NCBI GenBank assembly: GCA_034401795.1
Contig: CM067369.1
Coordinates: 188,750,742 to 188,814,741, forward strand
Origin: Chaetoderma sp. LZ-2023a
Taxonomy: Eukaryota; Mollusca; Caudofoveata; Chaetodermatida; Chaetodermatidae
Direction of reading: 5' to 3'
DNA length: 64,000 nt
A model generated the notes under the pieces. It searched no databases. It was not told where the DNA came from and worked only from the letters and a program-made list of their open reading frames with translations. Position 1 is the first letter of the stretch, and every line of letters starts with the position of its first letter. Shown here piece after piece: positions 2,205 through 60,006 of the stretch. A program made the position numbers and the translations under genes.

Positions 2205-2206
2205 CT

Positions 2207-7734: not shown

Positions 7735-7742
7735 GTGTCAGC

Positions 7743-18934: not shown

Positions 18935-18936
18935 CT

Positions 18937-27458: not shown

Positions 27459-28330
27459 TTAATGTTGTTGTGGAAGCTGATTAAAGAGGAAGCTTCTACC
27501 GCAATGCAGGTTGTAACATAGTTTTCTAGTTATACATTCCAATTCACATAATAATGAGAAGTTATTAGGTAGTAATCCAGCCCTGACTAGACTTGTACAG
27601 TCGATAATAAGTTTTACGAGGTGATCTTCTATGCTGGAGATATATTTCCAGGAATTCTCGCCAAGGTGGTCGATGATGGTTTTCTTGAGCAGTGATAAAT
27701 ATTGATTTCTATACTGATGGAGTGCACCACAGTGTAGCAAAAAGTGTTGATAATCTTCAGAACTCAACTGACAGAGACGGCATGTGGGGTTAACAATGTT
27801 TTGGTTGAATTTACTTAGTGTTGCTTGTACTAGGTATGCTCCTGTGATGAGCCTGGCTTTAATGACACTACGTTTTACATCCTTGTTGTCATTGTCTACA
27901 GTGTGCACGGATATATGGCATTTCCCAATACAAAAGTCTTTAGTGTTACAGTTTTTAAGTGTACTTTTGGTTTCACACGCAAACTGTAAGTCCTCGTTCC
28001 ATTGGCTGTCCACGGCAGATTTTACTACTGATTTCCATTTTAACTTAGAGGGTAAATTCAGAATAAGCTCTTGGATGTTTGATAAGTTGTATCTCTCTAG
28101 CAAATTCTTAATATAAATAAACCAACTGCCCGATTTTCAACAATCATTTAATGATTTTGGAGTCTCAAACGCCAACTGTCTTACTAGTATGTGGTTAAGT
28201 GGCTTGTTTTGGCATGCCAGGATGTTCCTCAAAAGTGTTAGCTGACGTATGTGTAGCTCTGCAGGGATTGGTCTAGCACCAGGTAGAAGGAGTATAGCAC
28301 ATTTCGCTAGTAGCTACTGAATAAATAATT
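27459..28330 (-). pseudogene. 5'-truncated LINE, ORF2 C-terminus
   Basis: A 214-residue frame (27459-28103) plus upstream sequence to about 28330 (LPGARPIPAELHIRQLTLLR) broken by a stop. It has the CRLCQLSSEDYQHFLLHC zinc motif (C-x2-C...H...C) found at LINE ORF2 ends, and VIKARLITGAYLVQATLSKF before it. It is related to, but clearly different from, the C-terminus at 28541-29074. A third related piece lies at 41892. No RT core remains. It lies in RMC1 intron 1 right after exon 1. Confidence 0.8.
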
Positions 28331-28405
28331 TTGAATCGTTACGAAATCTGGTTATTTTTCACTTTGTATGAATGGTGAGGCTTTTACAGGACAATATATA
28401 CATAC

Positions 28406-28516
28406 TTGCTTATTTTTATCGTCAAAGAAAACATTTGTAACTTTACTGACGGGTTCAAATCGGATAGGATTTTTACTCAATTCAATATAAAAACTTAAAT
28501 CGTCTCCTTCTGCCAT
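28406..28516 (-). CDS. RMC1: RMC1 exon 1, with start codon
   Basis: 37 codons from ATG (28516): MAEGDDLSFYIELSKNPIRF, then EPVSKVTNVFFDDKNKQ. It ends in phase 0 at a GTATGT donor. From known homologues, RMC1 begins with an acidic short leader, then YLEL..-P-FE, CVFFDE-NKQ, directly followed by VFAVRSGG. That next part is exactly what exon 2 at 11111-11187 supplies. The ATG is preceded by an (AAG)n run and, only 25 bases upstream, by the stop codon of a LINE. No host 5' UTR or promoter is visible in between. Confidence 0.85.
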
Positions 28517-28517
28517 T

Positions 28518-28534
28518 CTTCTTCTTCTTCTTCT
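28518..28534. repeat. (TTC)n microsatellite between RMC1 and LINE tail
   Basis: Plus strand TTCTTCTTCTTCTTC; on the minus strand (GAA)n. It is probably the simple-repeat tail of the LINE at 28541-34450. Confidence 0.7.
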
Positions 28535-28540
28535 TATTTG

Positions 28541-29074
28541 TTACTTTTTCTGTAAATACCTCCTCTCTGTTCTATGAGCACCACCAGCCGGCACTAAGTT
28601 CCTAGCTGATGTAAAGTGTTGATTTTGTCGCGTTGTGTTATCATGCCTTCTTGGACGAAATATAGTGTACTGAGACTTTCCAGTTAGTATGCAAGATCTC
28701 TTGTGGTGCAGCTTGAAACAGAGGTCACGGGTGGCCTCCTCTAGCATGGTCGCGAGCGGATTGCATTTAGTGAATGTATGGGAGGTGTCGAGAATTAGTT
28801 TAACGATGTTGTCTTGCTGACATTCTTTCAAGGTTTGGAGGTTACCGGCTAACATGATGTGTTCAATCTTGTTGATGAGTGGTTTGCGGGTTTCTTCCAG
28901 ACATGGACAATTAAGAAGGAAATGTTCAGTGGTCTCTGGTTCAGATTCGCAGAGTGGACAATCAGTGTTAGAGGCACGGTTTCGAGTAGAGCCGGCATAC
29001 AAGTTGTAGCGCTGAGTGAGCAACTTTGCTTTGACTGTTACTTTGATGACCGTAAGGGTATCCGTGTTTGCCAT
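28541..29074 (-). pseudogene. LINE ORF2 C-terminal zinc-motif part
   Basis: 177 residues. VKAKLLTQRYNLYAG leads into CPLCESEPETTEHFLLNC, the C-x2-C...H...C motif at the end of many LINE ORF2 proteins. It is frame-shifted relative to 28968-29648, overlapping it by about 100 bases. It ends RYLQKK-stop just before the (GAA)n tail. Confidence 0.8.
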
Positions 29075-29648
29075 ATTCCAGACTGAGTGGCAACTTCCTA
29101 TTTTGCAGGACGATAATCTTGATGTATCCCAATGTTACTTTCGCTGCCGCTGCCTCGAGTATGATTTCTAGCCAGTAGTTATTCACATTAGCATGCAACA
29201 GCTTCTTCCAGGAACATTTTGTAGGTTGGGATTTTACAAGGTTGAACGCTGATGGAAGCTTATACTGAATCAGGAGCTTTCTAACAACAATCACCCAGCT
29301 ATGGGAGTTGTAGCTTTTGACAGCCAACTGTCGTCTAATAACTAATGCTTCAATTGAGTCAGGTCGTCGCAGCATGTTGAGAAACAGTGTCAGTATTCTC
29401 TTATGGATTTGACCTTCAATTGGGATAACGGCAAGGAGCAGGTAAACAGCAGCATTAGCGGTTGAGGCAGGTAGACGCTGCAGTCTTTTTAAAGTCCCTC
29501 TGTAGTAGTCCTCCAGCATTTGGACTTCACTGTTTGAGAGCACAACTGCTTCTAAGCCATGTAAAAGGATTGGTGTGATATAGATCTCCCATAGCTTGAT
29601 GGATGTCATTGGGTTGATACCATTAAGACCGTACATTCCGGCGCCCAT
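28968..29648 (-). pseudogene. LINE ORF2 post-RT (thumb) part
   Basis: 226 residues from ATG in the same frame as the RT, after one TGA at 29664. TPILLHGLEAVVLS and DYYRGTLKRLQRLP are typical of the region after the LINE RT (YGxEx). It leaves its frame near 29060, where 28541-29074 takes over. Confidence 0.8.
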
Positions 29649-29663
29649 CAGCGAGTATACTGC

Positions 29664-30863
29664 TCAGCATGCTGAGTCAATATGTGCAAAGATTGTTGAC
29701 TTGTTTTTTACATTATTTGATCTGTGAATTCCCAAATGTGCTTCCTCTGGGAAAAGTTCCAGTTCAGCTCCATTAAGATGAAGAAATGCATCTGAAGATT
29801 TACCAGGTGCTGTTTTTGGGACCATAGCTTTGGTCTTTGCTGTGCTAAACAGGTATCGCTCGTTTGATGCATCGAGCTCTGCAATATTCAATAGTTGCTG
29901 CATTTGAAAGGCACTCTTGGAGATAATGGCCAGGTCGTCTGCACACATGATGGCGCCAGTAGGAATAGAACCAATGCGAAATGTACCTGGATGAGCTGTC
30001 AGTTTATTCAGTAATGGGTTGCTACGTTGTTTGAAGAGATCAGGAACTGTGTATGTGCCCTGTCTGATGCCGAGTTCTTCATTGAAGGCTCTAGATACAT
30101 TCCCCTCCCACTTGATTACTGATGTGATGCCGGTATACATGCTGTTAAATAGCTCCCATAGTCTGCCATCTAGTCCTTGAGAAGAGGTTGCATTCAGCAT
30201 GCTTTTGTCACAGACTATGTCAAACGCTTTTGAAACATCCATGAATGTAATAAGCAGTGGCAACGCACTATCTTTTGCCTCAGCTAAGCATTCAGTAAGC
30301 AAGAAGGCTGCATGAGTAGAAGAGCATCTATTGGTGAATCCAAATTGCAGCTTGTTTTGTTCTGGGTCCAAGACTGCCCTTGACCGTTTCAGAAGTTCTT
30401 TCTCTAGCAACTTGCTTAAAAGGGATGTAACCGTAATACGCCTGTAGCTGTCTGGATTGTTTGCTGGTTTTCCTTTCTTCAAGATTGGTGATACGATGCC
30501 CATTTTCATACCGTCTGGAATCGTCCCCCGTTTCAGTATTCCGTTAATTAGACGTGTGATGACACTTATTACTTCCTCAGAGGCAAACTTCACATGCTCC
30601 GCCGATAGGCCAAATGAGTCTGCAGCTTTACCCTTTTTTATTGAATCAATATGTCTCTTTGTGTCAGCTTCTGTGAGCAGTTGAACAGCATTTTCGTTTG
30701 ATGGCAACGAGCTAAGGAGAGCATGGATCATGTTAGCAGAGTTGTTTGCATCTTCACTGAAACTAGGATGATGCTTGGCAGTAGCCAAATCCTCAAAATA
30801 GTTGGCCCATCCTTCAGTTTCTGATATTTTTGAAGAGAACTGCTTGAAGTCGATGGCTGACAT
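29664..30863 (-). pseudogene. LINE reverse transcriptase domain
   Basis: 399 residues. AADSFGLSAEHVKFA and SPILKKGKPANNPDSYRRIT are RT fingers. FMDVSKAFD (Asp near 209) is motif A, GIRQGT (265-270) motif B, MCADDLAII (306-314) motif C and LFSTAKTKAMV motif D. After RQGT the usual CVLSP-like segment is altered. It is bounded by in-frame stops (TAA at 30867, TGA at 29664), so it is one interrupted protein with its neighbours. Confidence 0.9.
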
Positions 30864-30866
30864 TTT

Positions 30867-31553
30867 TTATGCTCTGCTACCAGGTCGATGTTTACATACA
30901 AGTTTAAACATGGATTGTTTGTCATGTGTTGACATGTACATGATAGCACTGTGAAGATTGTTACGCAAGTCAGCTGACAGTTGGCGTTGAGCATGACGTA
31001 GGGCTTGTTTAGCACGCATCCTGTTATTAGTTAATTGGTTGACTTTGTCTGTAGGACGGCCTCCCTTCTTCCAGGCCCAGTGCGCAGCTTTCGCTTTAGA
31101 GACTAGCGGTTTTAGTGCTGAGTTCCATTTAGTTGTTGTACTACGGCGAGGAGGTTTAGCATATGTAGGATCACACTGAAGAACGGTCTTCTTTAGAATA
31201 GAGTTAGTGGCTTGAAGTATGATATCTGGAGAAGTGTCTGGCGGGCAGTCCTTTAAGACCTTGGTAAGTCTGGTCTTAGTCAATGACTTATAACGCTCCA
31301 TATTTGCTTTCAACCAATTAACGCGTGGTTGCGGAGGGCAGTTTATCTTCTTTACCCTCCCTGGGAGTATTGTTAGTGATAAGGTTGCAGTGACTGAGTC
31401 GTGTGCACTCTGGTTAATAATGTTTCTTGTGTCAACTACAATATCTGTGATTATTGTTTCTTGATCCATCGGTTCAATGAAGTGGTCATTATGGGATGTA
31501 ATGTTCCCTGAAAATTGGTAATATGTTGGGCAATCTGTGGTTTTATCAGACAC
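30867..31553 (-). pseudogene. LINE ORF2 end of endonuclease and EN-RT linker
   Basis: The frame is open back to the TGA at 31677. It includes ILWTGDVNADI (GDxN of the endonuclease, about 31610-31640) and SAHDSVTATLSL, the position of the catalytic SDH box, here altered. Then comes a basic linker (RRSTTTKWNSALKPLVSKA) and the start of the RT region. It ends at an in-frame TAA followed directly by the RT frame. Confidence 0.8.
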
Positions 31554-31676
31554 GCTGAAGGGTGCAGAAGTGCAGAATTCCTTAAAAAGTACATCATTCT
31601 TTGAAGTTTTCTCTCTATTTATGTCTGCATTTACATCACCTGTCCATAGAATATGGCTGTCCTCTCTGTACTGTTC

Positions 31677-32110
31677 TCAAATTTCAAAAACTTCATCCAG
31701 GATGCTTTTATAGTTGTGTTGGTCTGAAGAGCCTTGGGAAGGCAGATAGGTGTTTATGAGAACTAAGGGTGTTTCCTCTGTACGTATGCGTATTGCTAGG
31801 ACTCTGTTACTGCCAACCGGTAATACTTCAATTTTCCGTGACAGATCTTTATGCCAGATGACTGCAACCCCGCCTTTACCTCTAGGTCTATACGAGGGAG
31901 GTAGAGGGTCATCATCGTCTGAACACTTTATGGCTCCTTCATGTGATGGAAATGCTTTGCAAGTATGGTCTGCTTGGTAGTTAAAGAGCCAATGTTCCTG
32001 AAGGCAGAGGATGGTTTGGTTTCCTTTCAATAGCTCCTCCACATAGGCGATGTTGCTGGTGATATTTTCAATGTTACAGGAAACAATCTTTAGGTGTACA
32101 TCAGAGAGTT
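31677..32110 (-). pseudogene. LINE endonuclease N-terminal part
   Basis: From about 32110 the frame reads LKIVSCNIENITSN, then ILCLQEHWLFNYQ (catalytic Glu), GGVAVIWHKD and LINTYLPSQG: the EEP-fold endonuclease that nicks target DNA for target-primed reverse transcription. It stops at TGA (31677), past which the same frame continues. Confidence 0.88.
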
Positions 32111-32119
32111 GTGTAGTGT

Positions 32120-32773
32120 CTAGTCGTTTCTGTGGGGTGGTGGTTTGTCTGTCCCCTGAGGAGACTCTAAAAAATGAATGTTACTTGGAGCCGGTGAGAC
32201 TTGCTGCTGGTTGTTATCTAGCGAGGCTTGTTCACTGCAATATTGTTTATCTGCGGATGATTGGTTAGATATTTGGCGGGAATGTTCTTTCTGACTCTCA
32301 TTATTATTGTCAAACGCAGGCGCTGACCGTTCGTCTGTCGAAGTTAGAGGAGGAAGAACCTCTGATTTATTGGTCTGATTATTTGTGGCTGTGACTCTGG
32401 AGGTTACATCTTGGTTTTGATGACTTTCTGACAGAGCTTGACTTTTGCTCGTTATATTTACAGCTACTGGTTTGACTACTACGCGACAGTTGGAAGCTGC
32501 ATCCTGTAGCCCGTTGCTAGGCACTGGCTGAGATTCATTCTGGTAGAGTTTGCATGTGGGATCGGACAGTGTCAATGGCAATGTTGTTGATGATTTGTTC
32601 AAATCCTGCTGTCTAGTTTGATTCTGGTGTGAGACTCTTCCGAATTTACCCGCCTGTTGGCTACGCCGAGCACTATGGTTGTTAGGTTTCTGCAGTTGCA
32701 TAGTACTGTTAGGGACATTTGCGATCAGAGCGGTAGTTAATATTGTCCATATGACCTGAATGAGATGGTACAT
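32120..32773 (-). pseudogene. LINE ORF1 tail, low-complexity
   Basis: 217 residues rich in Ser, Asn and Gln, no domain. It lies between the Pro-rich ORF1 segment and ORF2 and is best read as the shifted C-terminal part of ORF1. Confidence 0.5.
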
Positions 32774-33173
32774 TAGGTTGACTCATATAGTGGTTTTGGT
32801 GACAGCATGGTGGGATAGGTGGCCATGGTGGAAAGCTCTGGTATCCAGCTGGTGCTGGTGGCTGAGGTGATGGAAAGCTCTGGTACCCTGCTGCTAGAGG
32901 TGGCTGAGATTGTCGAAAATTCTGGTATCCAGCTGCTGGGGGTGGTGGCAGAGGAAAGTCAAGATGTGGCGGCTGAGGTGGAGAAAAACACTGGAAGCCT
33001 GATGCTGGAGGTAACCATGCTGGACACATATAGCCGTATGGCGAATAAGGTGTCTGAGATGGAGCATTTGCCGAGGTTTGTATGTCGTTTTGAGACAGCA
33101 CTTTAAGTTTTAGTAGGCGGTTCTCTTCTGACAGAGTGTTAATCTTGGACTCTAGGTTACTGATTAGTGACAT
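32709..33173 (-). pseudogene. LINE ORF1 coiled coil and Pro-rich repeats
   Basis: Starts with a heptad-like coiled coil (LESKINTLSEENRLLKLKV) followed by imperfect repeats of the form PPxAAGYQxFxxxQPP, with AGYQSF recurring three or four times. It continues ORF1 after a frameshift near 33245. Confidence 0.65.
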
Positions 33174-33244
33174 AAGTTCTTCAAGGCGGGATGATTGCCC
33201 ACTGAATTCCTCCTGCTGTTTGTTGAGCTGGATTTGTTTAGCTT

Positions 33245-34282
33245 TTAGCGACCTTTCCTGGACTTTAACTGCTTTTCTTTGGCTTCGAGTGACAGTGATC
33301 TTATCAGCGAGTCTGTGGCATTGACATTTTTGTTTTTTGCGGCATCTTCTGGGATGGGAGCACTAAGTGCTATAGTTTCACCTGTGATGACAGTTCCGTT
33401 TCTGGGTGGCACATCGCATCGCTGGGCTGTTTGGTTCAGCTGATCGTGATCCGACGGGCTTGGTATTTCCGCTACTTCATCTTCTCTGGTGTCCTGTTCT
33501 AACAAAAGTGAGCAAGAGGAGCATGTGTATGGATGTTTATCTTGTTTCAGTTTTGTAACTGTGCTTGGAGATAAGCCTTCGCAACGATAATGTATCCAGT
33601 TGTCACATGTCTCGCATAGTACGGCGCTGGATAGAACGTATTGTTGACAGTGTAAGCACAAGTCCAAGGTCTCGGCATTGTCATCAGAGGTGTTCAGATT
33701 TTCTGGACACGTATGAGATGAAGTTGGTCCCGTTAAGGCACTATTTCCAGGAGTCATTGGCGTGAGTGGACTAGATACTGGTTCCTTCCTCTTGCTAGGA
33801 TGGCCGGTAGTCTTAGTGATGATGATTTCAACAGAATTTGTGTCATGATCTGGCTGTTTTGGTCTAGCTGTCATATGATTGTTCAAGGTCAGGTTGGATG
33901 CCGATAGCTGAGATGTACTGATACTAGGATTACTGCCTGGCTGAATTGATGGCGGAGAATGGCGCAAGTCATTGTCCTTGGTACTGGATGACTGGTTTGT
34001 CATGTAATTGTGGCAGAATTCCCGGATTTGGTCATTTACCTCGTCTAGGTTTGAGGTGCTATTTATTGCTGTTATAATGTGAGGCAAGTCTATAGATATG
34101 AACTCGTGTAGGCTAACACCATTTATGACCACCTTACACTGAGTATGGTAGAGATTGACTCTAAAGAGTTGGCGGCCACCCCACACGGGTCTGACTGCAA
34201 TGGAGTCTTCTATAGTAAGGCCATTACGATCTCTTTTCCTGGATATCCCGTCTATATATACTTCTATGAGCATGTCCACCAT
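33245..34282 (-). pseudogene. LINE ORF1 with PHD finger
   Basis: 345 residues from ATG at 34282. An N-terminal region of unknown fold (VWGGRQLFRVNLYHTQC) comes first, a Ser/Pro-rich middle follows, and then a PHD-type zinc finger: CLHCQQYVLSSAVLCETCDN, WIHYRCEGLS, YTCSSC, which gives the C4HC3 order. PHD fingers are known in ORF1 of several LINE clades. The C-terminus is basic (SLEAKEKQLKSRKGR). Confidence 0.75.
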
Positions 34283-34529
34283 ACAAAATCACACAAAGAT
34301 GTCCGAAGAACCAGCATCGAGACCAATCTAAAAATAGAGGCGTGGCTTCTACTATAATACGCCTCTAATGTATTGACCGGCCATCTTATTACGTCATCAC
34401 GTAACACGGGAAGACACAAGTAACATACCCCAATAAAAGAATGTCTCATATTCTACTGTACTCGACCTGATTAAGATTGAAGAACACGAAGTCAGAAAGA
34501 GGCTTGAAAATCTTTCTGTGTCAAAATCT

Positions 34530-35520: not shown

Positions 35521-35880
35521 TAGTAGGGTTCACTATGTATTTTCCTTCAGAATTTTTGGGGATTTGTAACACTATATATTTTTGGAAAGCATTTTATATG
35601 CCAATTTCAAAAACCAATGTTTGCATTTGCATAAATGTCTTCATGGTGGCCATCTTGAATTTTCAAAATGGCCGCCATCTAAATGCTTCGAAATCCAATA
35701 TATCTGCAACCATGTACCCTACATTCACAATTTTGATGTCTATATCTAGGTTTTCTGGGTCAACGAATGCATTGGTAACATTTATAATAAACTTCAAGTG
35801 CCAGAAATAATGTTTTGGTTGATAATTCCCAAAATAATAAGCAATTCTCACACAACATCTGCAAATGTCGCACCTTTTTT
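35521..35880 (+). repeat. Left terminal inverted repeat of DNA transposon 1
   Basis: About 360 bp, reverse complement of 41131-41499 at roughly 75-80% identity by eye. Best kept segments: AATGTTTGCATTTGC, the GGTGGCCATCTTG...GGCCGCCATC block, CCAATATATCTGCAACCAT and GAATGCATTGGTAACATTTA. Confidence 0.88.
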
Positions 35881-36263
35881 CTAAATCAATATTTGTTACA
35901 ATATTTAACGGTAACAGTAGCCCATAGTAATCCTATAGAGGGGATAGAATGACGATATAGCCCAATGGCCTGTTATCTACATAATCACATTGTCATCATG
36001 TTTATTAATAAACATATTACGACAGAGTATGTATATGGTGAGTGGCGTGTCACAATTTTACAATAATGGATGGCCCAGGGTAATTTTCAAATTCACCAGT
36101 AAAAGTAAACTGAAAGCAAATTTTTGCTGAAGTTGTTCAAATGATCGTCTGCTCATAGATTTGCAATAAGCATAATCAGACAGCAATAATCTTCAGGATT
36201 ATCGTTTGTAATCTTGCAATAAGCATTGATCAAATATATTTTGTCATCAAATTTGAGTAAATC
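35881..36263. other. 5' leader of DNA transposon 1
   Basis: AT-rich sequence between the inverted repeat and the first codon; no promoter motif could be singled out. Confidence 0.4.
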
Positions 36264-37046
36264 ATGAGCGATGTACAGCTTGATGCAACACAGGAGTTAA
36301 CAAACTGGAAGCTATGCATTTTATGCCAGACAGATGCTACTGTTAAAGGACCAATGGTGCAGCATCCAAGAATAGACTCATTTACCAATTTGTTGCAAGC
36401 AGTCGAAGAGAGAGCAACATTGAAAGATGGTTCATACATTGAAATACAGAAAAGACAGACTTTGCACATATGGTGACCTATCTTCACATAAAGCGGGTTG
36501 GCATCGCAGTTGTTACTCTACTGCCACTAACAAAGAAATACGATGTGCACGAAATCGCATAGAGGATGCACTATCTAGTGGGTCTTACATTACTAAGAAA
36601 ATGGGATAAAGAGGAAAAGTGCTATTGATGAGGCATCGACATCAACTTCAGTATTTACACGTTCCTCGACAATTCCACTGTGTAAGGAACTGTGTTTCTT
36701 CTGCCAGACAGACGATCATAATCAGCAGTTGTTCAAATTACGAACTCATAATGCTGGTAAAGCCCTAAGAGATGCATTGGAAATAGCACAAGATACAGCA
36801 TTACTTACTAGATTAAATACCTCGCTTTCCCCGTGTGATGCACATGCAATTGATGTCCGGTATCACAAGTCATGCTGGAGGAAGCATGTTTTCCACATTT
36901 TACGAGATTCAGATACTACAAGAAATGCTGAGAATGATCTCTCCCGGCAAATGGCATGTCTGATTGAAATTATCCATGTTGTTGATACACACACCCGAAA
37001 TGGGGCTTATCTGTCTATGGCTGACATATAAATAACATATATAAAC

Positions 37047-37442
37047 ATGTTTGACCGTAAATCCTTGGACAATCATTCACCTACATTTAGTAGGCAGTGG
37101 CTGAAAGAGAAAACCCTTTCCGAGCTAAATCATGTAAGATCTGTCCTTCAAAAGGACAGGCGCAAGTGTGCCATTCTGTACTCGCTAGAAGCATGTGAGA
37201 AAGAAACGGTTCATTCTGCGATGTGTGAAGATGATGGTATGGAAGGCATGAAGGCGATCTATAGGGCAGCACAGATTGTTCGAAAAAGCATCACAACATT
37301 CACTAAGAATGATGGTGAACCTGGTTCAGTCCTTGTTTCCAGCAACATGGATGACATCCCATGTGAACTATACACACTGCTACGATGGATAATGGTTGGA
37401 CCTGTAGATAGTTTGGATAGCAAAACCAAAGTGTCTCGTTGA
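37047..37442 (+). pseudogene. DNA transposon 1, helical region after zinc motifs
   Basis: 131 residues, charged and helical (WLKEKTLSELNHVRSVLQKD), with no motif I recognise. It runs into a stop at 37440 while the next frame (37439-38614) continues the protein. Confidence 0.6.
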
Positions 37443-38614
37443 TAGAGCAGTGCTTACATCTTGTGAAACGTGAAACCCTCATGTTTGGACTTAAATCGGA
37501 TAGGCAAGTGATGCATAAACCTAAAACTGCCTCTTCTGAAAAATTCAGATCCCAACAAAGAGAAAATTCTCAGGTTCTAGGATTGGCATTATCTGTGCAT
37601 CACGACACCAGGAATAAGAAGATTGTGAATCTTCTTCATGCACAGAACTGTTGCATATCCTACCACCGTACCATGCTTCTAGAAACAGCAATAGCTAACT
37701 CGGTTGTCGAAAACATGAGACAATTCAAAAATCTGTATGTACCACCATTTCTAAAGAAAGGGACATTTGTTTTCTTTACTGTGGACAACACCGATTTTGC
37801 TGAGGATAACATTGATGGTAAAGGTACTACACATGGAACAATTGTTGCGGTCTATCAAAAAGCTTCTGCACACGGGGAATCCATTGCACCACCGTTAAAC
37901 ATTGGTGATGCAAAGAGCTTATCCATTACACCACAACACACATCTATGTTGCCATGCGTCAAACCAAAGGCTCAACCTGGAATGCAAAGTAATTTTGTGT
38001 TGAGTAAAACCGGTGTTGCAGACTCTTATCAGCTGACCCATATGGGTTGGGTCATAGCATCTGTTGTTGCGAGGATGGATGAAAGGAAAGAGATGTGTTT
38101 GGTTCCTGGGTGGGCTGGGTATAATTCACTCCTGTCATCAAGTAGATCTCTAACCAATGTTGGTGCATTGCCTCTTCTCCCAGAGATGGCTCATGAATGG
38201 TCAACGCTAATGACTGTAATTAAACAAGCACAAACATTGAAGGAGATGGCCATTGGTAAAGACCATCTAACAGTCATTACTTTTGACATGACCCTGTATG
38301 AGAAAGCAGTGCAGCTTGTAGATGTCAACGTCAATTTAAAGAGTGGTGTTATCCCAAGACTTGGTGAACTCCATGTCGTCATGGCTGCATTGAGAGCTCT
38401 CGGTACTTCTATTGAGAATTCCGGAATAGACGATGCATGGATCGAGGCTGATGTCTTTAGCTCTACCACAACGACACAAATCCTGAAATTCAAGCACTAC
38501 TCACGTTCTCTTCATGCTCATATCTACTCTTACATCGCATTGTATGAACTGGTCTTTGACGAATTCTTCAGAGTATCCAAATCTAAGGGATGCGTGCATA
38601 TCAGCTACAGATGA
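37439..38614 (+). pseudogene. DNA transposon 1, core part with VDNxD motif
   Basis: 391 residues. FFTVDNTDFAEDNIDGKGTT (about 116-135) matches VADNVDHNICTIDGHNTFHG in element 2 and probably holds the first catalytic acidic residue of the transposase core. The match between these two distant proteins is visible by eye: VDN-D, then DG--T-HG. The C-terminal roughly 10 residues are out of frame. Confidence 0.7.
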
Positions 38615-40067
38615 CATAGAAGAGGCATGCAGTAAATCAAACCAAGCCAGCCGGGCAGAATCAGTGATGCCGGCTCATTGCAATCTTCTCCAAGTGCTGT
38701 CTAATACTGATATGCTGAATCTCTTTCAGACATGGGTGACAAAGAGGTCCCAACATGCGATGTTCAAGTCATTAATGAACTATCTGTACCATGTGGAAAC
38801 AATCCTTTTCTTTGTCGCAGCATCCCGGAATACTGATCTGACCCTTCATCTTGAAGCTGGAGAAGCATTGAGCAAGTTATTCTTTGCTTTTGATAGAATC
38901 AAATACAAACGTCTTTGGCCAAGATACATAGCAGATATGTATGCAGCACTCAAGCAGAATCATCAAGACACATGGCAAGAATTTGAAACTGAAAACATTG
39001 CAGTGACTAAGAATGACATTCCATTCACTTCAATTGGTGCGGATCATGCATGTGAGCATCTGAACAAAATGATGAAAGTGCACTCAGGACTAATTGGAAT
39101 ATCTAACAATGCAAATGCGAGACAGCGATTTTTCCTCGCTGCTCCAGAACTGTCACAGTTATCCCAGGAATTCAAGTGTCAATTTGATTTGCAAGAAGAC
39201 AAGGTCAGAGATCACCATGGCATTGGAGCAAGTGCGGTTAAACACGAACACACCACAATCGACAAGATAAAGGCTGTCATACTGACTCATGGTAATCCTT
39301 TCGCTGCTGAAGGTGACATGATCTACAACATTATCTCACTTGCTTATGTACCACAAGAGTCGGTACCACAAATCCTGGATGTAGACGAAAGAGGGCAGAC
39401 ATTATATGAAGAGTATGTGAAAGAGCGCATTAATGGAGAGGTAAGCCTTTGGGCACCAGTGAAGCGTGACAAAAACAAGATGTATACATCTGGAAACAAA
39501 AAGACAACAGTACGTATTCGTGACAAAGCTGTTGATCTCAAGGAAACTAAAGATCTATATGCTAGGCTGATGATTCTCGCAAAGTCGAGTCGAGACATTG
39601 ATTTGAAGTATTCGATCAGCAACTTTGAATTCACACTGACACCGAGGGCGTTGTTTGCTCCGTGTGGCTCTGTCCTACAGTACACCGACAAGTCAAAGTT
39701 AATCAAGCTCTTGACTGACCCACCACAAACCGAGAGCACAGAGGATTCACTCTTATTAGGTGCAACAGAAGCAACTGCCATCGCAACTAAGGAATCTAGT
39801 AGGAGAATCGCAGTTGTGGATGGAATGGTTCTTGTCCAGCTGGCAAAGAAACCAGCAACTATTGTGACAGTCAACGACCGTAGTAAATGTTTTAATGACA
39901 GGTTAATGAGTCTGACAGCAGGATATGATGAGATCATTCTTGTATTTGATACATATCAAGCAGATTCCCTGAAAAACACGACCAGAGAGAAACGACGACA
40001 TGGGAAGGATCCAATTAGATATCAAGTCAAAGATGATACCAGTATCAAGCATATCCCTATGACATGA
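38514..40067 (+). pseudogene. DNA transposon 1, core end and first half of XPG-like nuclease
   Basis: 517 residues, genuine from about residue 24 onward. SIGADHACEHLNKMMKVHSG (173-192) corresponds to GLSTDLVIEQVLMRSVKSSG in element 2 and may carry the final catalytic Glu. IAVVDGM (432-438) and IILVFDTYQ (474-482) match the N-region of XPG/FEN1 nucleases, with metal-binding Asp in each. It ends at a TGA, after which the same frame goes on. Confidence 0.75.
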
Positions 40068-40070
40068 TTT

Positions 40071-40640
40071 TTGTCTCATGACCAAACAAAGAATGACCGT
40101 GCGCAGTATCTGGCAGAGAAAACTATTGAGTACAATAAAGACTCATCTACCTTGGCCATAGCATCAGCATCAGGCCAGACGATAAGTAATAGAAGCCTAC
40201 ATTTTGAGAACAACAATCATGAGGAAGCTGATACATTAATGATCTATCATGCCATATGTGCAACACAGCAAAATCTTGATACAGCAGAGTTGGTGATTTT
40301 CTCTCCAGACACTGATGTCTTAGTGCTGGCAATAGCATATTATGACAATCTACCTAAGAATACATCTATCTCAATGGTTTCTGGTACCATTAAGCTACGG
40401 CCTATATGGAAAACTCTAGGCATGGAGAAAGTAAGAGCATTACCCGCATTTCATGCCTTTACTGGAGCAGACAATATTGGCAGGTTCTCTAGGATAGGTA
40501 AATCAACATGGTTAAAGCTTTTCCCAAAGGCAGACAGCGATGTAATCGACGCTCTGATAAATTTATCGAGAAGCACTGAGGTCACAGATGAGCTACTTTC
40601 AACTCTGGCAAAATTTGTTACGTTGGCATTTATTCTGTAA
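40071..40640 (+). pseudogene. DNA transposon 1, XPG I-region
   Basis: 189 residues in frame with the previous part. HEEADTLMIYHA (50-61) and FSPDTDVLVLA (77-87) are the acidic motifs of the XPG internal region (normally E-A-D and D-x-D). FTGADNIGRFSRIGK (130-144) resembles the helix-hairpin motif that follows. Together with the D in VVDG this gives a plausible complete metal-binding set. A frameshift ends it near 40625. Confidence 0.8.
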
Positions 40641-40956
40641 GCAGCTTGCTGATAGTGAAAGTCTACCGCCTACTATTGGTGCTTTGAAACAGCATGTACT
40701 TAGAGTACAAGTCCAGGCAAATGTGTGGGGTCAGGCAGACATTTCACATCATGTGTTTCTGGATCCACTACAGAATGGACACTACAAGGAGACAGGTGGC
40801 CAACTAAAGGCAAAAACAACAGATGTTATACCAGCTCCAAAGTCTCTCATTGAGATGGCTAGGTGTCAATGCAAATCGAATTGTTCCTCTCATCGATGCT
40901 CGTGCAAATCCAAAGACTTACCATGCACTGAGCTTTGTCAATGCAGCGCAGTGTGA
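40588..40956 (+). pseudogene. DNA transposon 1, CXC domain
   Basis: The open frame continues with CKQLADSESLPPTIGALKQH and ends CQCKSNCSSHRCSCKSK, then CTELCQC: a tesmin/TSO1-like cysteine-rich (CXC) DNA-binding motif. The matching position in element 2 reads CSCKTGCESKRCTCRKHG. A short acidic tail lies in another frame up to 41026. Confidence 0.82.
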
Positions 40957-41130
40957 AAATGATGATGACTCAATCGTTGATGTCTCTATATCAGATGATG
41001 AAGATGACGCCAATGTTGCTAGGTAGACAGCAACTGATGCAGCACATTTATTGTTGCTTGAATACTTAGATTAAATTGGTGAGATAACTCTGTTATATGG
41101 CAAATAAAATTCATCATTGCAACATTATCA

Positions 41131-41499
41131 CAAAAAGTTACAAATTTGCAGATGCTGTCTGTAAATTACATATTAAGTCAGGACTTATCTACCAAAACAT
41201 GATTTCTGTTATTTGAAGTTTATTATAAATGTTACCAATGCATTCACTGACCCAAAAAAACATAGATATAGACATCAAAATTATTAATCTAGGTCATATG
41301 GTTGCAGATATATTGGATTTCAAAGATTTTCGATGGCGGCCATTTTGAAATTCAAGATGGCCACCATGAAGACTTTTGTGCAAATGCAAACATTGGTTTT
41401 TGAAATTTACACATTAAAAGCTTTCCGAAAATATATAGTTTTAGAAATCCCCCAAAATTCTGAACGAAAAAATTTTTTTTTACACTGTGACCCTCACTA
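41131..41499 (-). repeat. Right terminal inverted repeat of DNA transposon 1
   Basis: Reverse complement of 35521-35880. It ends CCCTCACTA, followed by the TAT target duplication. Confidence 0.88.
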
Positions 41500-51897: not shown

Positions 51898-52430
51898 TCA
51901 GTCCTTCTTCGCTTTTGCCCACTGAGTCTTGTCCTCAGCCGAAACCCGTAGCTTCCTCAGGTCTATTCGTGACTTGAGTGTACCGAGCCCTGCTTTTTTT
52001 AGGTCACCCCGTAGTACGCTTAGCAGATTTATGCAATGACGTCCTCTCCTGGCTTTGTATTTGCTGGCTCTGAGTAGGGCGAATTCCAAGTCTCTCTGGG
52101 CTGGCGTCTCTTCTGGCATTGGACCATGGACCATTTTTGCTGGGCGACTTTTACAGACAGCGGCGATGTATTACACATCTTGTATAGTGCATCATTGGAA
52201 ATTATGCTGTCTGGCGATCGGTGTGAAGTGATGGTGCGTAGGTGTTTGCGGTGGCAGTCATCGAGTTTGTCTAGAGCTGCCTTTATAGCTGCCCAGCTGT
52301 TACAGTTATACATCATCAAGGATACGCAGGTTGCATCGTATAAACGTAACCTTTTTATCAAGGGCATCTTTGATCTATGAATCCATAGCTTCCAGGACTG
52401 GAAAGCTACATGTACATATATGTTCCCCAT
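51898..52430 (-). pseudogene. LINE ORF2 C-terminal end
   Basis: Two overlapping frames. 52029-52430 has DATCVSLMMYNCNSWAAIKA and LDDCHRKHLRTITSHRSPDS. 51898-52134 has MPEETPAQRDLEFALLRASK, KARRGRHCINLL and LRELR-like motifs. This is the typical tail of one LINE lineage common in marine invertebrates (RTE-like; clade not certain). A frameshift lies near 52120. Confidence 0.8.
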
Positions 52431-52633
52431 GATGCAGCGTGCAGAAATGTCAGCAGTACTGCAAAGCAGTGAGCCCAGAATTGTATTTTTCCTCTATGGT
52501 TCGCCGCCACGAAGTGGATCGTCATTTTCTTTAGTTTCATGATTTGTAGATAGGTATATGTGGGTGAACTCTGTTTTGGATTCATTCATAAATTCTCAGT
52601 TTTAACTTGCTTGCAGCTATTGGGGGAAGTTCG

Positions 52634-53065
52634 TCAAGGGGTTTCTTTTCCTCGTCTATGAAGTCCACATCGTCCGCATATTCCATCTCTAGTGGTATAC
52701 CCAGTTTTGAGACTGGGGGTGTTTGGTCTTGTGGAACTTTCCCGCACGAATTTCAATGCAGCAGCAAAGTAACAGGTGAAAAGCACCGAAGATAAACCAT
52801 CTCCCCGTGGGGAGCGGATTGATGTCTCAAACTCTATACAATTCAGTGACTTGACTCGTACTCTCAGCTTGGTGTCTGCAAGCAGTAGTCTCACTAGTCG
52901 TAGCTCATCCTCATTGCAACTGGCCTTGCATAGTACATCCAGGATCTTTGAGAATTTAATTGTGTCGAAGGCTCGTGACATGTTAATGCCCATTTTGTGG
53001 AAATCCCAGTGTTTGGACATGACTACAGACACAAGCATGAGTTGAGCGACCACGTTTGAAGCCAC
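52634..53065 (-). pseudogene. LINE RT palm
   Basis: GINMSRAFDTIKFSKIL is motif A with the catalytic Asp in SRAFD replaced or shifted relative to the usual DMSxAFD. SPRGDGLSSVLFTCYFAAAL is motif B. Motif C (EYADDVDFID) is found in another frame at about 52655-52690, so a frameshift lies between. Confidence 0.82.
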
Positions 53066-53562
53066 TATGACCTGATCCGGTAGTCATCGAGCATGTCTCC
53101 GATGCGGCATAGAGTAACATTGGATATGATTTTCTGTATGCTGTTGAGGAGCACAATGGGCCGCAAATTAGCTGGGTGGCCAGGTGGCTTGTTGAGCGTG
53201 GGTAGTGCGATAAGGGTGCCTTGGCCTACAGCATCGATGGGAAGGTGGTGCATAAAAGCTGAATTATTTAGCTGCGTGATCGGTTTTGAGATAATGTCAC
53301 TTGCATATTTGAATAGTTCATTGCTTATGCCATCATGTCCAGATGCACATACATTTTTCAGGGCTTTCAGTGCCTTCTCAACTTCTGCAGTTTTAATTGG
53401 TGTTAGTAATGCCCTGGGGTCTCCCGAGAATGGGTGCAAGGGTTCATCATCCTGGTCAGCGAACTGTTCCTTGAACCATTCTCGAATCGCCTCAGCTTTG
53501 CCCTGGATAGTCCCGAGAGTGTCCTTCAGATTAGTGTACAGTGAGTGATGGTGTGTAGTCAT
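53065..53562 (-). pseudogene. LINE RT fingers
   Basis: 165 residues: KALKNVCASGHDGISNELFK and HPANLRPIVLLNSIQKIISN are RT motifs 1-2 (LRPI.LL). It continues into the palm block after a stop. Confidence 0.85.
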
Positions 53563-53568
53563 TAACTC

Positions 53569-53889
53569 TCAAGGCTCGGGTTGATAGATGTGCAGCCGTA
53601 CCGCTTTCTGCTCTGCTGACAGTTTTACTACTAGAGGGTCGTCAGTATACCTAGTTCGGTTGTTTTTAAGAACACCTACAGTGATAGTTGCTAATGATTC
53701 CATAGATTTCAGTATTTTGGTTATGGCTTCGTTTGGATCGGAACTGACATCGATATTAGCTATCTGCTGCCAGAGGGCCTTTTTGTATGACATTTGTGTG
53801 TCAGTGTCGCTGATGAGCTTGGGTAGGTTGTAGGTGACTCTACCCTTTTGCCTGGTATGGCGTTTATACATTAGGTAGAGATCATTCAT
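53569..53889 (-). pseudogene. LINE endonuclease-RT linker
   Basis: 106 residues, basic (YKRHTRQKGRVTYNLPKL, LKNNRTRYTDDPLVVKLSAE), as in the region between endonuclease and RT. The catalytic SDH box lies just upstream in another frame. Confidence 0.75.
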
Positions 53890-53984
53890 CTGAAGGCGTG
53901 TAATGACTCATGACTGGTTTATGGTCAGAACTCAGGTCTATGCTTCCATAGGAACGAGTATTCTGAAGTATGGGTTTTGCTTCT

Positions 53985-54150
53985 TAGTCCAGTCAATCTA
54001 GGCCAAAAATATTTTAACCCGGAACAAATTGCAACAGAATTTTTTTACCTCGCCCAGTGTATAGGGGGCCATCATGTACAACATATCAAAAGTCCTCCAA
54101 AATTCCAATAGGAGAAAGGGTAAAATTTGCATAATTATTACCAGATTTGG
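53985..54150 (+). repeat. Left terminal inverted repeat of DNA transposon 2
   Basis: About 165 bp, inverse of 59185-59336, with two near-identical blocks (20 and 26 bases) and more variable sequence between. Confidence 0.9.
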
Positions 54151-54441
54151 GCCATTTCACCTGAAAAATCCATTTTTCTTTATTTCTTTAAAACCGGTAT
54201 GTAATATATGTGTGACTGGGTATTTTTGGACTTTTTTAGTAATAAATGAATACGATTGACATATTCTCCACAAATTAAATGTATTGTGTTATGCCACTTG
54301 CATGAATTTACCTAATACCATCATTGATATTGATACAATACATATTATATTTTATTATGTCACGGTATTGTGTGTTTCTAAGCTAAGCTAAGATGAAATA
54401 GTATGGCATAGTTACCTGGTTTCTACTAATTTCATCTTGCA
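54151..54441. other. 3' untranslated part of DNA transposon 2
   Basis: AT-rich sequence between the inverted repeat and the stop codon of the gene; no motif noted. Confidence 0.4.
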
Positions 54442-56652
54442 TCAATTATCCAAGTCATCTTCCTCAATGAGCGTTATTGAATTCGAGCAACTGAGACCCT
54501 TACAGTCTTCGCAGGCGGATGTGCAGCTGAGCCCATGTTTTCTACAGGTGCATCTCTTTGATTCACAGCCAGTTTTGCAGCTGCATCTAAATGAATACAG
54601 TAAATCGTCAGGTGCTGCCAGCATGTCAGTCTTAACAGGCAGCATTTGGTGGTTGAGAACTTTCCAGCCCCATTCTGTTGGATCCATATCTCCAGCATCT
54701 CCTCTCCAAACTTGAATTTGGTAGTACACGCGAAGACTGTGAAACTTTGCGGATGCGGGTGTTGGTGGTAAATCTCGTGCTTCAACATACTTGGAACTTT
54801 TTGCAACTTTCTCCCTGAATCGCTTGTACCGCAAAGCAACTAGACTATCCATTGAAGTGCCATTGTATAGAATAAGCATTGCCTTCTCACCTGCTTTTAT
54901 CACGTCATCTTTATTCGCATTACTCATTGTAAACACTTCAGCAATTTGAGAGAGTTCTTTGCAGCACTGGATTTTGCTAAGGGATGCAGATTTTCCAATT
55001 CCATAAAGCCTAGATGTTGAGTCACAGACAAGGATAGCATGGATAAATAACAGCTGTGAGCACAAACAGAACCCGAGTTTTTCCTTTGCCATTTTGATAT
55101 TCCACAGTCGGGGTTTCTTTGCATTTTGCTTCGGCTCTGGTCTGAAAAATAGCTGACAGCCATTCATATCAGTATGGTATAGAAGCAACACCAGTAGGTC
55201 GGTATCGTTTCCAACAAGAGCAGTATTTGTTGACTTTGAAGCCAAGATAGCCGTTTGCGTAATTAAGACATCAGCATCACCGCTTGCCTTTATCGTTAAG
55301 CATCCAGCCTGTTCGAGAGATGAACTTAAGATTGATATGAACCGATGTTTGTTCTGCTTGTTACTAAGAAAATCAGGCTTACTCAGAGTTACAACTGTTT
55401 GCGGAGTCAGTACAACAGTTGCGCCTGATCCACGAGTTCGCCTCTTATGTGTTACATCTTTTATGTCTGGGCCTTGGTCATAACCATAAAAAACTACTGT
55501 AGCCTTTCCATATTTGCTTATGCAATATTTTACATATCTTTGACAAACATTTGCAAATGTCTCTCCACGCTGCCATGGAACACGGTGTAATAGAGCTCCT
55601 CCATCAAGCACATAGTGGACAGAATCTGGAAGGACTGCATCTTCATTTTGAATTAATTTCCACAATGCATCAGCAAGTGCCGGCTTATTTGCTTCCCATG
55701 GAAGAGATGAATTATCAAAGAGTGCGGGCGGATGAGTGCACAACTCATACTCAAAATAAGATGATGGATTCCCTTTTGATCCATTTGTAGCAATTAAACT
55801 GAGTCTTTGAAATAGGAGTTGTGGATCAATTTGCACACATTCATCATCAATCTTGAGAGATGTTTTGGATGCTAAGGTAATAGCTTGTCTCTTTCTCTGG
55901 AACGAAATGCTTGATACACATTGGCCACACATCGAATTAATAATTGATTCTCCAATATCTTTAGCATCGTCAACATTGACTGATTCATGTGCAGACAATC
56001 CACTAACAAGTCCTCTAAGAGAAGGGTCTGGTCCAAATGGATTCAGTTCACTAAGGATTTTGAGAATTTTGTAAGTATCATCCATATCACGCTTTATTCG
56101 AGATTGTGTGGAATCTTTGTGTTGTTCACTTGAATCACAGTTTACCCCAGAGAGCTCTTGCATTGCATTACACACATCTGCACATGCAGGCATAGACAAC
56201 AACCAAACAAGACGCTGAAGTTCTGTCATTCCACGACCTTGTGTTAGACCACCACTTGACTTTACACTTCTCATAAGGACCTGCTCAATAACTAGATCAG
56301 TAGATAACCCTGCCCAATACCTATCACTTCGATGAATGACATGATGACCATTGAGGAAGCTGGTGTATATATCTGGATGACTTTCAGGTATTTCTAACAT
56401 CTTTTGTAAATATACATATGCAGACTTGGCGTACAGATTATGCCCAGCGGCTGCAAAATATGGAAGCATCTCACGAACGGTCTGAAGGTGCATGTTCCAA
56501 TCACCAGTTCGTTCTGCCTTAATGAATTTGCGCAAAATGTCAACCAACTCCATATACAAAAGCCAGAGTCGTGCAGTCCTCTTATCTTTCATGACCACCT
56601 TCGCTGAGTCTAGTTTGTCCTTGACATCATGTAATGCATTTTCCGAGGACAA
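54442..56652 (-). CDS. DNA transposon 2, core end, XPG-like nuclease and CXC domain
   Basis: 736 residues without a stop; the annotated start is a TTG, and the frame is open upstream to about 56668. HRSDRYWAGLSTDLVIEQVL (107-126) plus RSVKSSGGLTQGRGMTE (128-144) is a conserved block likely to hold the last catalytic acid of the transposase core. XPG/FEN1-like nuclease: YVLDGGALLH (348-357), VVFYGYDQG (387-395), ASGDADVLI (456-464), VGNDTDLLVLL (481-491) and CDSTSRLYGIGK (543-554). CXC domain: CSCKTGCESKRCTCRKHG (690-707) and CTSACEDC (710-717). The C-terminus is acidic. No mutation is obvious in this part. Confidence 0.88.
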   Translation of the reverse strand: MSSENALHDVKDKLDSAKVVMKDKRTARLWLLYMELVDILRKFIKAERTGDWNMHLQTVREMLPYFAAAGHNLYAKSAYVYLQKMLEIPESHPDIYTSFLNGHHVIHRSDRYWAGLSTDLVIEQVLMRSVKSSGGLTQGRGMTELQRLVWLLSMPACADVCNAMQELSGVNCDSSEQHKDSTQSRIKRDMDDTYKILKILSELNPFGPDPSLRGLVSGLSAHESVNVDDAKDIGESIINSMCGQCVSSISFQRKRQAITLASKTSLKIDDECVQIDPQLLFQRLSLIATNGSKGNPSSYFEYELCTHPPALFDNSSLPWEANKPALADALWKLIQNEDAVLPDSVHYVLDGGALLHRVPWQRGETFANVCQRYVKYCISKYGKATVVFYGYDQGPDIKDVTHKRRTRGSGATVVLTPQTVVTLSKPDFLSNKQNKHRFISILSSSLEQAGCLTIKASGDADVLITQTAILASKSTNTALVGNDTDLLVLLLYHTDMNGCQLFFRPEPKQNAKKPRLWNIKMAKEKLGFCLCSQLLFIHAILVCDSTSRLYGIGKSASLSKIQCCKELSQIAEVFTMSNANKDDVIKAGEKAMLILYNGTSMDSLVALRYKRFREKVAKSSKYVEARDLPPTPASAKFHSLRVYYQIQVWRGDAGDMDPTEWGWKVLNHQMLPVKTDMLAAPDDLLYSFRCSCKTGCESKRCTCRKHGLSCTSACEDCKGLSCSNSITLIEEDDLDN

Positions 56653-56660
56653 TCTTGTAG

Positions 56661-57881
56661 CTAATGATTTTTGATAATGTCATCATAGAGCTCTCCAACT
56701 TTAACCAGACTTTTATTTAGGGAACTTTCAATCGTTTCATGTCCTGCAACATTATCATCATTGTCAAACAATTCTTTTGAATGCATTGCAGCGGAATATT
56801 CTACTGTGTCAACTTCAGCATCTGCAATTGTAGGTAGTGGTAGGTTGTATGCATTTGCAGTCAAGATTGTACTGAGAGAAGCAAAAACCATGAGGTGTCC
56901 TCGAACTGCTCGAGAAATTGCCTTTCCACTAAGAATGTGTTTGACAGCATTCTCAGCGTAGACTACCTCTAGAATAGGCGCAAGACCGCTTCCTGCCATT
57001 AAGTGACCAATGCAGCCAAGGAAGCTCATCTCCATATGAAGACCTCCGAGTCTTAGAATAATTTGCTTTAATGGACTCCAGCTCGGCTCAATCTCTATGA
57101 TAGTCATAGCTTTCCAAAATAAGGGCTGATCAAATGTAATCACGGGTGCAACATGGTATCGGTTTGCCTGTTCACAAACATAAGTCAAAGTGGAAAAGAT
57201 GCAGGTCATGTTACTTGGCTCTAGATCTATCATCGGAAGGAAAATAACAGACGATTTACCTGGATAAACTCCTTGGTGAACAGTTTGCATCATGCCAGAC
57301 CATGACTGTCTCCTTGAACGCAGAAACAAAGAGAAATCCCAGAGGATGTCAATGTCAGCTGTTGGGTCTGTTTGTTCCATCGCAGTTAACTCCTTAAAGG
57401 TCAATGGGAAGTTCCTGGTATGCTGAGACTCAAAGTTCCTGATACAGATCTTGCCAACTTGCTTGATATCTTCAGATGTTACATTTATCCTTGGAATAAG
57501 TTTGCACGAAAGGTTTCCTGGTGTAACAGATGCAATGATTCCCATTCCATGAAATGTATTATGCCCATCTATTGTGCAAATATTGTGATCCACATTGTCG
57601 GCAACAAACTGAATGAACTCGCCTGATAATGGCTGTGGTAGATCTCCACCATGAAGTGATGCACTGCGCTCAAACCTCTGTATCTCCGCGTATGAACATC
57701 CAAATCCGTGCTTGTACAAGGTGTCAACAATAAATCTAGATCCAAATTTATGGTGCATCTCACATGACAGCCCGAACTGCAAAGGTGCCAAAATAACTCT
57801 AGGATGAGTTCCTTGCATAATAGCCTGTCCAACTGATGCCTGTTTCATTTCTGTGTCTTTTCCAGTAAACAAAATCCGCAA
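56661..57881 (-). pseudogene. DNA transposon 2, core with VADNVDH motif
   Basis: 406 residues in the same frame as 57906-58325 after one TAG stop. FQFGLS..MHHKFGSRFIVDTLYKHGF-like segment near 35-60 and VADNVDHNICTIDGHNTFHG (93-112) are conserved and match element 1 (VDNTDFAEDNIDGKGTTHG). IFLPMIDLEPSN (about 218-229) and GGLHMEMSFLGCIGHLM (284-300) follow; the latter aligns with RLGELHVVMAALRALG in element 1. A frameshift of one base near 56665 leads into the next frame. Confidence 0.78.
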
Positions 57882-57905
57882 TAATTCCCGCAGTGTCTCT
57901 GGTAA

Positions 57906-58325
57906 CTAATTCAATGCCTTTACTGGGTTGCTCATTTGCTCCCTTGATGGATAGCTTTCAGATGATGTGCATGAATCAATTAACTTAATATCGTGTCTAA
58001 GCAGTTTGGCAGCTGTCTGGATGATTAGCATGCTCTCTGATTTGGAATCCTTTCTCTTCTGTTCCTTATAGAAGTCAGTCAAAATAGTAGATGCTTTAGA
58101 ACGAAAGGTAACAACGTTTGGCTTACCATTCACAGTGCTAATAAATATTTCATTGCCATAATTATCTTTTATTTTATCCTGCATGTATTTTGTACTGTAT
58201 GCTTTATTCTCTTTATCATCGAGATACTCTTGCATTTTATTAATGAGGTCGTGCAGGGTCAGCTGCTCATCATCATTATTTTCAAGAAATGCCATTGTCG
58301 CACTAAATGCTCTTACTCTGTCCAA
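57906..58325 (-). pseudogene. DNA transposon 2, N-terminal helical region
   Basis: 139 residues: LHDLINKMQEYLDDKENKAY, DKIKDNYGNEIFISTVNGKP and NVVTFRSKAS. This is a pattern seen between the zinc motifs and the core (winged-helix-like, not certain). It ends at an in-frame TAG, past which the frame continues with LPETLRELLRILFTGKD. Confidence 0.65.
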
Positions 58326-58863
58326 GTCTTCTGGCCTTCCATGTTTTTGGGATGAGCAAGATGAGTGCAGCTACGCGGCAGCTTTGATGGTATACTGCAT
58401 TGACAACGCATAAATCCGGCGTGAAGGCAAGCCGCCAAGCTACAAGTTTGCCCCATTCGTCTTTTCTCTGCTCACAGGCCTCGGCGATACTACATTGAAA
58501 GTCATGAGTACTTACTGGATAAATATCATAGCCACGTTTCTTTCCATCTTGAATTTTTGCAGGGTATCCGCATAGCAAACAATGTTCACTAAAATTGAAT
58601 GTTGGACTTTCTGAACGGAGTGTTCGCATGGGTGGCGGAGATTGTTCAATTTTCTCTGCGTCACGGGCAATCCGCTTGGGATCAATGAACTCCCGTCGAC
58701 ATTTTACATGAACCCTCTGTCCTACTTCAGCTATGACATCGCTTTCACGGGCTCTGCTAGCATTGTTAATACCGTCACAGCCTTTAACTCGAAGCTTAGC
58801 AGTTTGTGAGCCATTTTCTAGGCTCTGGTTACAAATAACGCATGTATCTAAATCCATGTCCAT
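58303..58863 (-). pseudogene. DNA transposon 2, N-terminal double zinc motif
   Basis: 186 residues from ATG at 58863. It has two CxxC...HxxC motifs: CVICNQ...RVHVKCRREF (8-60) and HCLLCGYPA...VYHQSC (94-165). The same duplicated zinc arrangement is present in element 1. A frameshift near 58345 ends it; the second frame picks up with HGRPEDLDRVRAFSATM. Confidence 0.72.
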
Positions 58864-59184
58864 ATTCTGATTGAATTCTATAGAAATTTATTCAAATTGT
58901 GAGATAAAAGTGAAAATTAAAATGCAATTTATTTTAGATAAAATTTTAAAAGCGAAAAACAAAATTAAACTTACTTTAAATATAATTTTTTTAAATTACC
59001 CCGGCCCTGTCCATACAACCATATTTAATCTGTGGTTTGGAGAATTTGTACAAGTGGTTCAAGGCAATATTGCCAATTGCTTACTGTCTTCCGTGACCAT
59101 GAAATTCAGAGCTTAGACAACATTTCTACTTCATTTATTTGCGGAATGAAGCAGGTAAGGGAAGTTTCATTATTCGGATAATGG
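58864..59184. other. 5' leader of DNA transposon 2
   Basis: Very AT-rich; no motif recognised. Confidence 0.4.
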
Positions 59185-59336
59185 CGGTAGCTAAATATGC
59201 GAATTTACCCACTTTCCCATTGAGGGATTTTGGAGGACTTTTGATATGTGACACCTGGCAGTCCCATGAATGCCGCAGAAAAGAAATAAATTCTGTTGCA
59301 ATTTGTTCTAGGTTAATTTGTAGTTTTACTGGACTA
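59185..59336 (-). repeat. Right terminal inverted repeat of DNA transposon 2
   Basis: Reverse complement of 53985-54150; ends ACTGGACTA then TCT. Confidence 0.9.
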
Positions 59337-59945
59337 TCTGTCTTGCATAGTATGAAGTCTATTTGGTTGTAGCCTTAGAACCTTTTGGGGCTTTGCGATC
59401 AGCAATGTGTCTGGTCCATGTTGTCCAGTGATGACATGGGTGTTTAAAAGCCGTATTTGTGGCAAATAGGCCATTGGAACTAAGGAATGCACCAGTGCAT
59501 CTCCATTGCTGTTGCATGTGCCCTCTCCATACGATCCCATGCATAATCCAAGTCCTGAACTTTTGTCCGCAATTCCGAGTTTACCTAGCTTGGAGTTGAA
59601 ATCTCCACACACGAACAGTTGCCATCTAGCTGGGATTGTAATGGCGGAGCTCAGTTCTGCATAGAAGGAATCTAATATTGCTGGATTCTCTTTGGCTTTT
59701 TGGTAGTTGGGCCATATGCGTTGACAATGCAACACTTAGTGGTGGTGTGTTTTCGCGTAGGTATAGCCAGGTCAATGAATGCAATACGATCACTGACGTA
59801 TCCAAAACTAATGACATGGGCCAAGACCCTTGGTCTGATTACGAAGCCTAAACCCCGGTATGTGGCCTGTTTTTGTTCCATGAGTACCAGCTTACGGTCT
59901 GTCTGTAGTTGCTGCTCTGAGTGTTTAGCTACTTTAGTCAATGAC
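59337..59945 (-). pseudogene. LINE endonuclease, interrupted by DNA transposon 2
   Basis: Two frames. 59672-59941: GLGFVIRPRVLAHVISFGYV then CIVNAYGPTTKK. 59337-59735: FVCGDFNSKLGKLGIADKSS, LLNTHVITGQHGPDT, and the NQIDFILCKT end seen in a third frame. GDFN and the NAYGPT strand identify the EEP-fold endonuclease. The catalytic SDH box is on the other side of the inserted element, near 53925. The 5' end is truncated near 59945. Confidence 0.86.
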
Positions 59946-60006
59946 TAATGGCATTTAAATTCATGTGAGTTGTAATTTTAACAATGAAACTGTATCAGAA
60001 ACATAC

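Follow-up and report, generated by a model that had tools for sequence, protein, structure and literature searches.

The stretch analysed here, 64,000 nucleotides of contig CM067369.1 from the mollusc Chaetoderma sp. LZ-2023a (hereafter the window), carries at positions 53985-59336 a DNA transposon of 5352 bp, which has its gene on the minus strand and sits in the endonuclease frame of a long interspersed nuclear element (LINE). The features of the element and of its surroundings are as follows, with the basis of each in brackets.

51898..53984, minus strand: interrupted LINE, 3' side (endonuclease remainder, reverse transcriptase and beyond), outer limit approximate (frames, LINE relatives)
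53982..53984, no strand: left copy of the target-site duplication, TCT (sequence at the edge; empty sites in the genome)
53985..59336, minus strand: DNA transposon, very probably of AcademX type (ends, terminal inverted repeats, target-site duplication, 39 other copies retrieved)
53985..54137, plus strand: left terminal inverted repeat, imperfect, about 150 bp (end-to-end alignment)
54442..58863, minus strand: transposase gene, broken here, in pieces 58887-58303, 58370-57906, 57905-56661 and 56679-54442 (comparison with copy L025, whose frame is uninterrupted)
54481..54585, minus strand: C-terminal CXC (Tesmin/TSO1-like) cysteine motif (alignment with relatives)
54670..55695, minus strand: XPG/FEN1-type nuclease region (placed from residues 726-1067 of the modelled relative P0006 through alignment and motif positions)
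56661..56679, minus strand: frame break, a 4-bp deletion found in the window copy only among 16 full-length copies (copy comparison)
56664..57905, minus strand: putative RNase H-like transposase region, first part (VADNVDH, ITFDQPL), continued in the next frame (DLVIEQ) (frames; folds of relatives)
57906..57908, minus strand: in-frame stop codon, not in L025 (frames, L025 comparison)
58303..58863, minus strand: N-terminal Cys-rich, putative zinc-finger region (Cys pattern by eye; no Pfam match)
58370..58372, minus strand: frame break, a 29-bp deletion found in the window copy only among the 16 full-length copies (copy comparison)
59192..59336, minus strand: right terminal inverted repeat (end-to-end alignment)
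59337..59339, no strand: right copy of the target-site duplication, TCT (sequence at the edge; empty sites in the genome)
59337..59948, minus strand: 5' part of the interrupted LINE (endonuclease), approximate at its outer limit (read-through, LINE relatives)

Both flanks of the element belong to the same LINE in the same orientation, and TCT stands at either edge, just as a first-pass annotation of the window had stated. That annotation had also taken the restored LINE frame as proof of the ends, and here only part of the argument could be retained. Taking out the element together with one TCT does yield a single open frame, QIDFILCKTEAKPILQNTRSYGSIDLSSDHKP, but the frame stays open whether none, one or both TCTs are removed, and because three bases left or removed keep it open, an open LINE frame is no proof of exact ends. 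The ends are fixed instead by the length across the junction in LINE relatives: among 69 relatives, found with the read-through LINE as query (frame breaks written as X), 55 cross the junction ungapped when exactly one TCT is removed, the remaining 14 comprising one gapped relative, one partial relative and 12 scoring too low at the junction to count.

The uninterrupted LINE, which the annotation had proposed to look for, was found in the same 2.44-Gb genome. Forty LINE sites matching the right flank, including the window's own, were scored out of 3597 candidates, and 20 of the other 39 places were retrieved, namely the first 21 listed less one whose match starts at query base 3. All 20 run on across the site: none has the insert, and none a gap within 12 bp. 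The empty site is thereby established; the three site bases read TCT in 18 copies, TTT in L056 and GCT in L067. The window's own LINE copy is disrupted by frame shifts. At about 53903-53909 it has 7 extra bases, which are missing as one gap from 16 of the 20 retrieved copies; two of the other four lack the 7 bases in two pieces, one lacks 19 bases and one does not cover the place.

The inverted ends reported earlier are present, though the repeat is longer than was claimed. The 9-bp sequence TAGTCCAGT lies at 53985-53993 (plus strand) and 59328-59336 (minus strand) and has no other exact occurrence in the window; with 0.37 matches expected, and two or more occurrences in 5 of 100 shuffles, this pair by itself is weak, near-chance evidence. 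The ends nevertheless align, imperfectly, over about 150 bp at 71% identity with gaps, sharing exact blocks that include AACAAATTGCAACAGAATTT, and the alignment score of 64.5 compares with a maximum of 20.3 in 1000 dinucleotide shuffles.

The same ends recur elsewhere in the genome. Searched with the 216-bp left end, the genome yielded 978 candidates, of which 40, the window's own included, were scored and the other 39 retrieved. All 40 have a rounded identity of 100% at the left end and are the best-scoring ones, so that older copies are under-represented. Both ends are present in 35 of the 40, the window copy included; L015, L019, L034, L041 and L044 were left out of the count, the right end being absent from the retrieved stretch. 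Every one of the 35 starts with TAGTCCAGTCAA and finishes with TTTACTGGACTA, and the 35 left flanks and the 35 right flanks are all distinct. Exact 3-bp duplications flank 30 copies and a 4-bp duplication one, four having neither; when flanks of different copies are paired, a 3-bp match arises by chance in 2.7% of cases. The copies are present on 9 contigs other than the window's own. Sixteen exceed 5.2 kb, most full-length copies measuring 5352-5392 bp; the other 19, internally deleted, range from 704 to 4536 bp. One deletion is common to L013 and L024, and since their 3-bp duplications differ, a deleted form has itself moved. The proposal of a DNA transposon with exact ends at 53985-59336 was therefore borne out by copies that share its ends but differ in their flanks, and neither of the findings named in advance as contradicting it was seen: none of the 20 LINE copies carries the insert as a normal part, and none of the 35 insert copies has differing ends. 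What is observed is insertion as a unit, with exact ends and a 3-bp duplication, by a near-identical multi-copy family that includes one uninterrupted gene and internally deleted copies.

The gene did move in as part of this unit, as had been claimed; that it is broken in the window copy had been missed. Besides the two deletions and the stop codon, the window copy has altered nuclease motifs, with VFYGY in place of VFDGY, GNDTDL in place of GDDTDL and VCDSTS in place of GCDSTS, the versions of most other copies; the window's versions are found in none of the 34 other copies with both ends. Judged on these two deletions, one stop and altered nuclease motifs, the window copy is dead. Pfam matched only DUF6589 in the element protein, at 17.3 bits and below the cutoff of 27; at E 0.01 the same family matched 12 of 47 relatives, and the Pfam CXC families matched one of the 47. 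The XPG/FEN1-type nuclease was revealed by fold comparison alone. A sequence search against solved structures gave no credible match for the element protein, Foldseek on the RNase H half gave no clear transposase match, and among the viral contigs scanned no relative was confirmed.

At least 464 protein relatives were found at E 0.001, under the names 'uncharacterized protein', 'Tesmin/TSO1-like CXC domain-containing' and, once, 'ERO1-like protein beta', in keeping with the earlier remark that such proteins are easily taken for host genes. The last of these names belongs to P0120 and probably reflects a gene-model fusion or a wrong name.

A distant relative of the element, termed E2, lies in the same window.

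35521..41499, plus strand: E2, running from TAGT to ACTA with TAT flanking it, its terminal inverted repeats about 360 bp long and its gene broken but alike in layout (ends, profile match)

Against the profile of the first family, E2 gives a match over 1052 columns (E 2e-86) with 21% identity in aligned columns. The two elements are alike in layout, in their TAGT ends and in 3-bp flanks (TAT versus TCT), whereas E2 has longer inverted repeats and an end sequence that differs beyond TAGT. TAGT ends and 3-bp flanks are thus common to two distant lineages, the E2 side being represented by one copy. Several stops and frame breaks disrupt the E2 gene. Its relatives number 41 at E 0.001, 18 of them of at least 1,500 aa; 13 of 17 matched DUF6589 at E 0.01 and one of the 17 matched a Pfam CXC family. 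P0217, an E2 relative named acetyl-CoA carboxylase subunit beta, is probably a gene-model fusion or a wrong name as well. For the third catalytic residue of the transposase, E453 of P0006, which is the Glu of KAERTGNW, was weighed and dropped, the E2 family reading AASRNADL there. The Glu of a D-x-x-x-E motif (DLVIEQ / DHACEH) is nearly invariant across both families and might, as a guess from the alignments, be that residue.

The 16 full-length copies differ from one another by 1.15% on average (range 0.17-1.86%), their variants are 421 singletons and 37 shared ones, and their tree is star-like. Substitutions from the majority number 3 in L010, 8 in L025 and 29 in the window copy, 22 of the latter being unique to it. 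Only L025 has an uninterrupted frame, of 1,490 codons; all of the remaining 15 are interrupted, with the break in L010 coming only late (at 1,416 codons, ahead of the CXC motif). The family has probably moved very recently. That it is still mobile is a real possibility that we stop just short of favouring; in that case at least one copy would encode a whole transposase, free of introns and with an XPG-type nuclease attached, and would be a natural active Academ element.

The annotation had recognised a DNA transposon and had missed its fit to a known superfamily. We are confident that the element is a new family of a known kind, namely a cut-and-paste DNA transposon, belonging to the Academ superfamily and there to the AcademX lineage, that inserted with a 3-bp target-site duplication into a pre-existing LINE and decayed in place. 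AcademX is reportedly a lineage within the Academ superfamily. The filing rests on the fit of duplication length and XPG-type nuclease: 31 of the 35 copies have 3- or 4-bp duplications, the element has terminal inverted repeats, and its protein carries an XPG-type nuclease. In the published accounts, AcademX duplications measure 3 or 4 bp and those of AcademH 9 or 10 bp, AcademH being reported with a helicase (PMC10045372), and the duplications of Zisupton and Dileera measure 8 bp and those of Kyakuja 7 bp (PMC12730594). The likeness to AcademX, drawn from description and not from a reference sequence, thus covers the 3-bp (once 4-bp) duplications, the nuclease joined to a putative transposase region and the inverted ends. 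A survey of bivalves gives 100 curated Academ elements with a mean of 5565 bp (PMC10294476), so that the kind is already well known; the 5352-5392 bp found here compare with that mean in size, not in sequence.

Assignment to another superfamily (AcademH, KDZ/Zisupton, Kolobok or an undescribed one) is unlikely. It draws some support from the placement having been made with no reference Academ protein in the comparison, and from the weak DUF6589 similarity, which points to no transposase family. The CXC motif is a feature of KDZ elements, for which reason KDZ was considered; it was set aside on duplication length, the 7-8 bp of KDZ and Zisupton being absent from the 35 copies. AcademH, which would share the superfamily if the filing is right, differs on both counts, since none of the 35 copies has a flanking match of 5 bp or more and no helicase family was among the Pfam matches of the 47 relatives or the 17 E2 relatives at E 0.01; it was likewise set aside. 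The database names of the relatives would suit a different account, in which a copied or captured host gene for a CXC/nuclease protein lies here and the inverted ends have no connection with it. This is highly improbable, given that near-identical copies, dispersed and containing the gene in whole or in part, have the same ends, mostly with 3-bp duplications and in different flanks, and that E2 shows this layout too, with ends that are similar. An assembly artefact at the junction, for which no supporting point was found, has a negligible chance in view of the target duplication, the exact ends and the copies on other contigs.

An AcademX-type element of this build suggests the following scheme. 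A single protein of about 1,480 aa would bind the inverted ends through its Cys-rich N terminus, its CXC motif or both; a putative RNase H-like DDE domain would then cut the ends and join them to target strands 3 bp apart, and the XPG/FEN1-like nuclease may trim strands or flaps at excision or joining. Protein from whole copies would presumably move internally deleted copies in trans.

Elsewhere in the window, 15059-19051 (minus strand) looks DIRS-like by eye, with a reverse transcriptase/RNase H frame at 16346-19051 followed by a tyrosine-recombinase-like frame at 15059-16105. Near-identical 396-aa frames at 1971-3161 and 18701-19891 (plus strand), 16.7 kb apart, suggest direct repeats and are perhaps DIRS-like parts. 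The region 27459-34288 (minus strand) is LINE-like by eye; its first frame resembles a PHD finger, another resembles an endonuclease, and a reverse transcriptase frame is present as well. A run of about 500 N, either an assembly gap or a withheld stretch, spans approximately 7740-8250.

Judging by their similarity to the element protein, the widespread animal proteins named uncharacterized or CXC-domain are probably transposon proteins. Academ elements are known from sequence but have been little studied, and a search at the level of literature listings turned up no experiment on whether one of them transposes or excises. The family described here is good starting material: it is young, one of its genes is uninterrupted, matched copies and internally deleted derivatives are numerous, and its empty sites are proven. 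If it is still mobile, one could test what the nuclease contributes to excision and to the setting of the 3-bp stagger.
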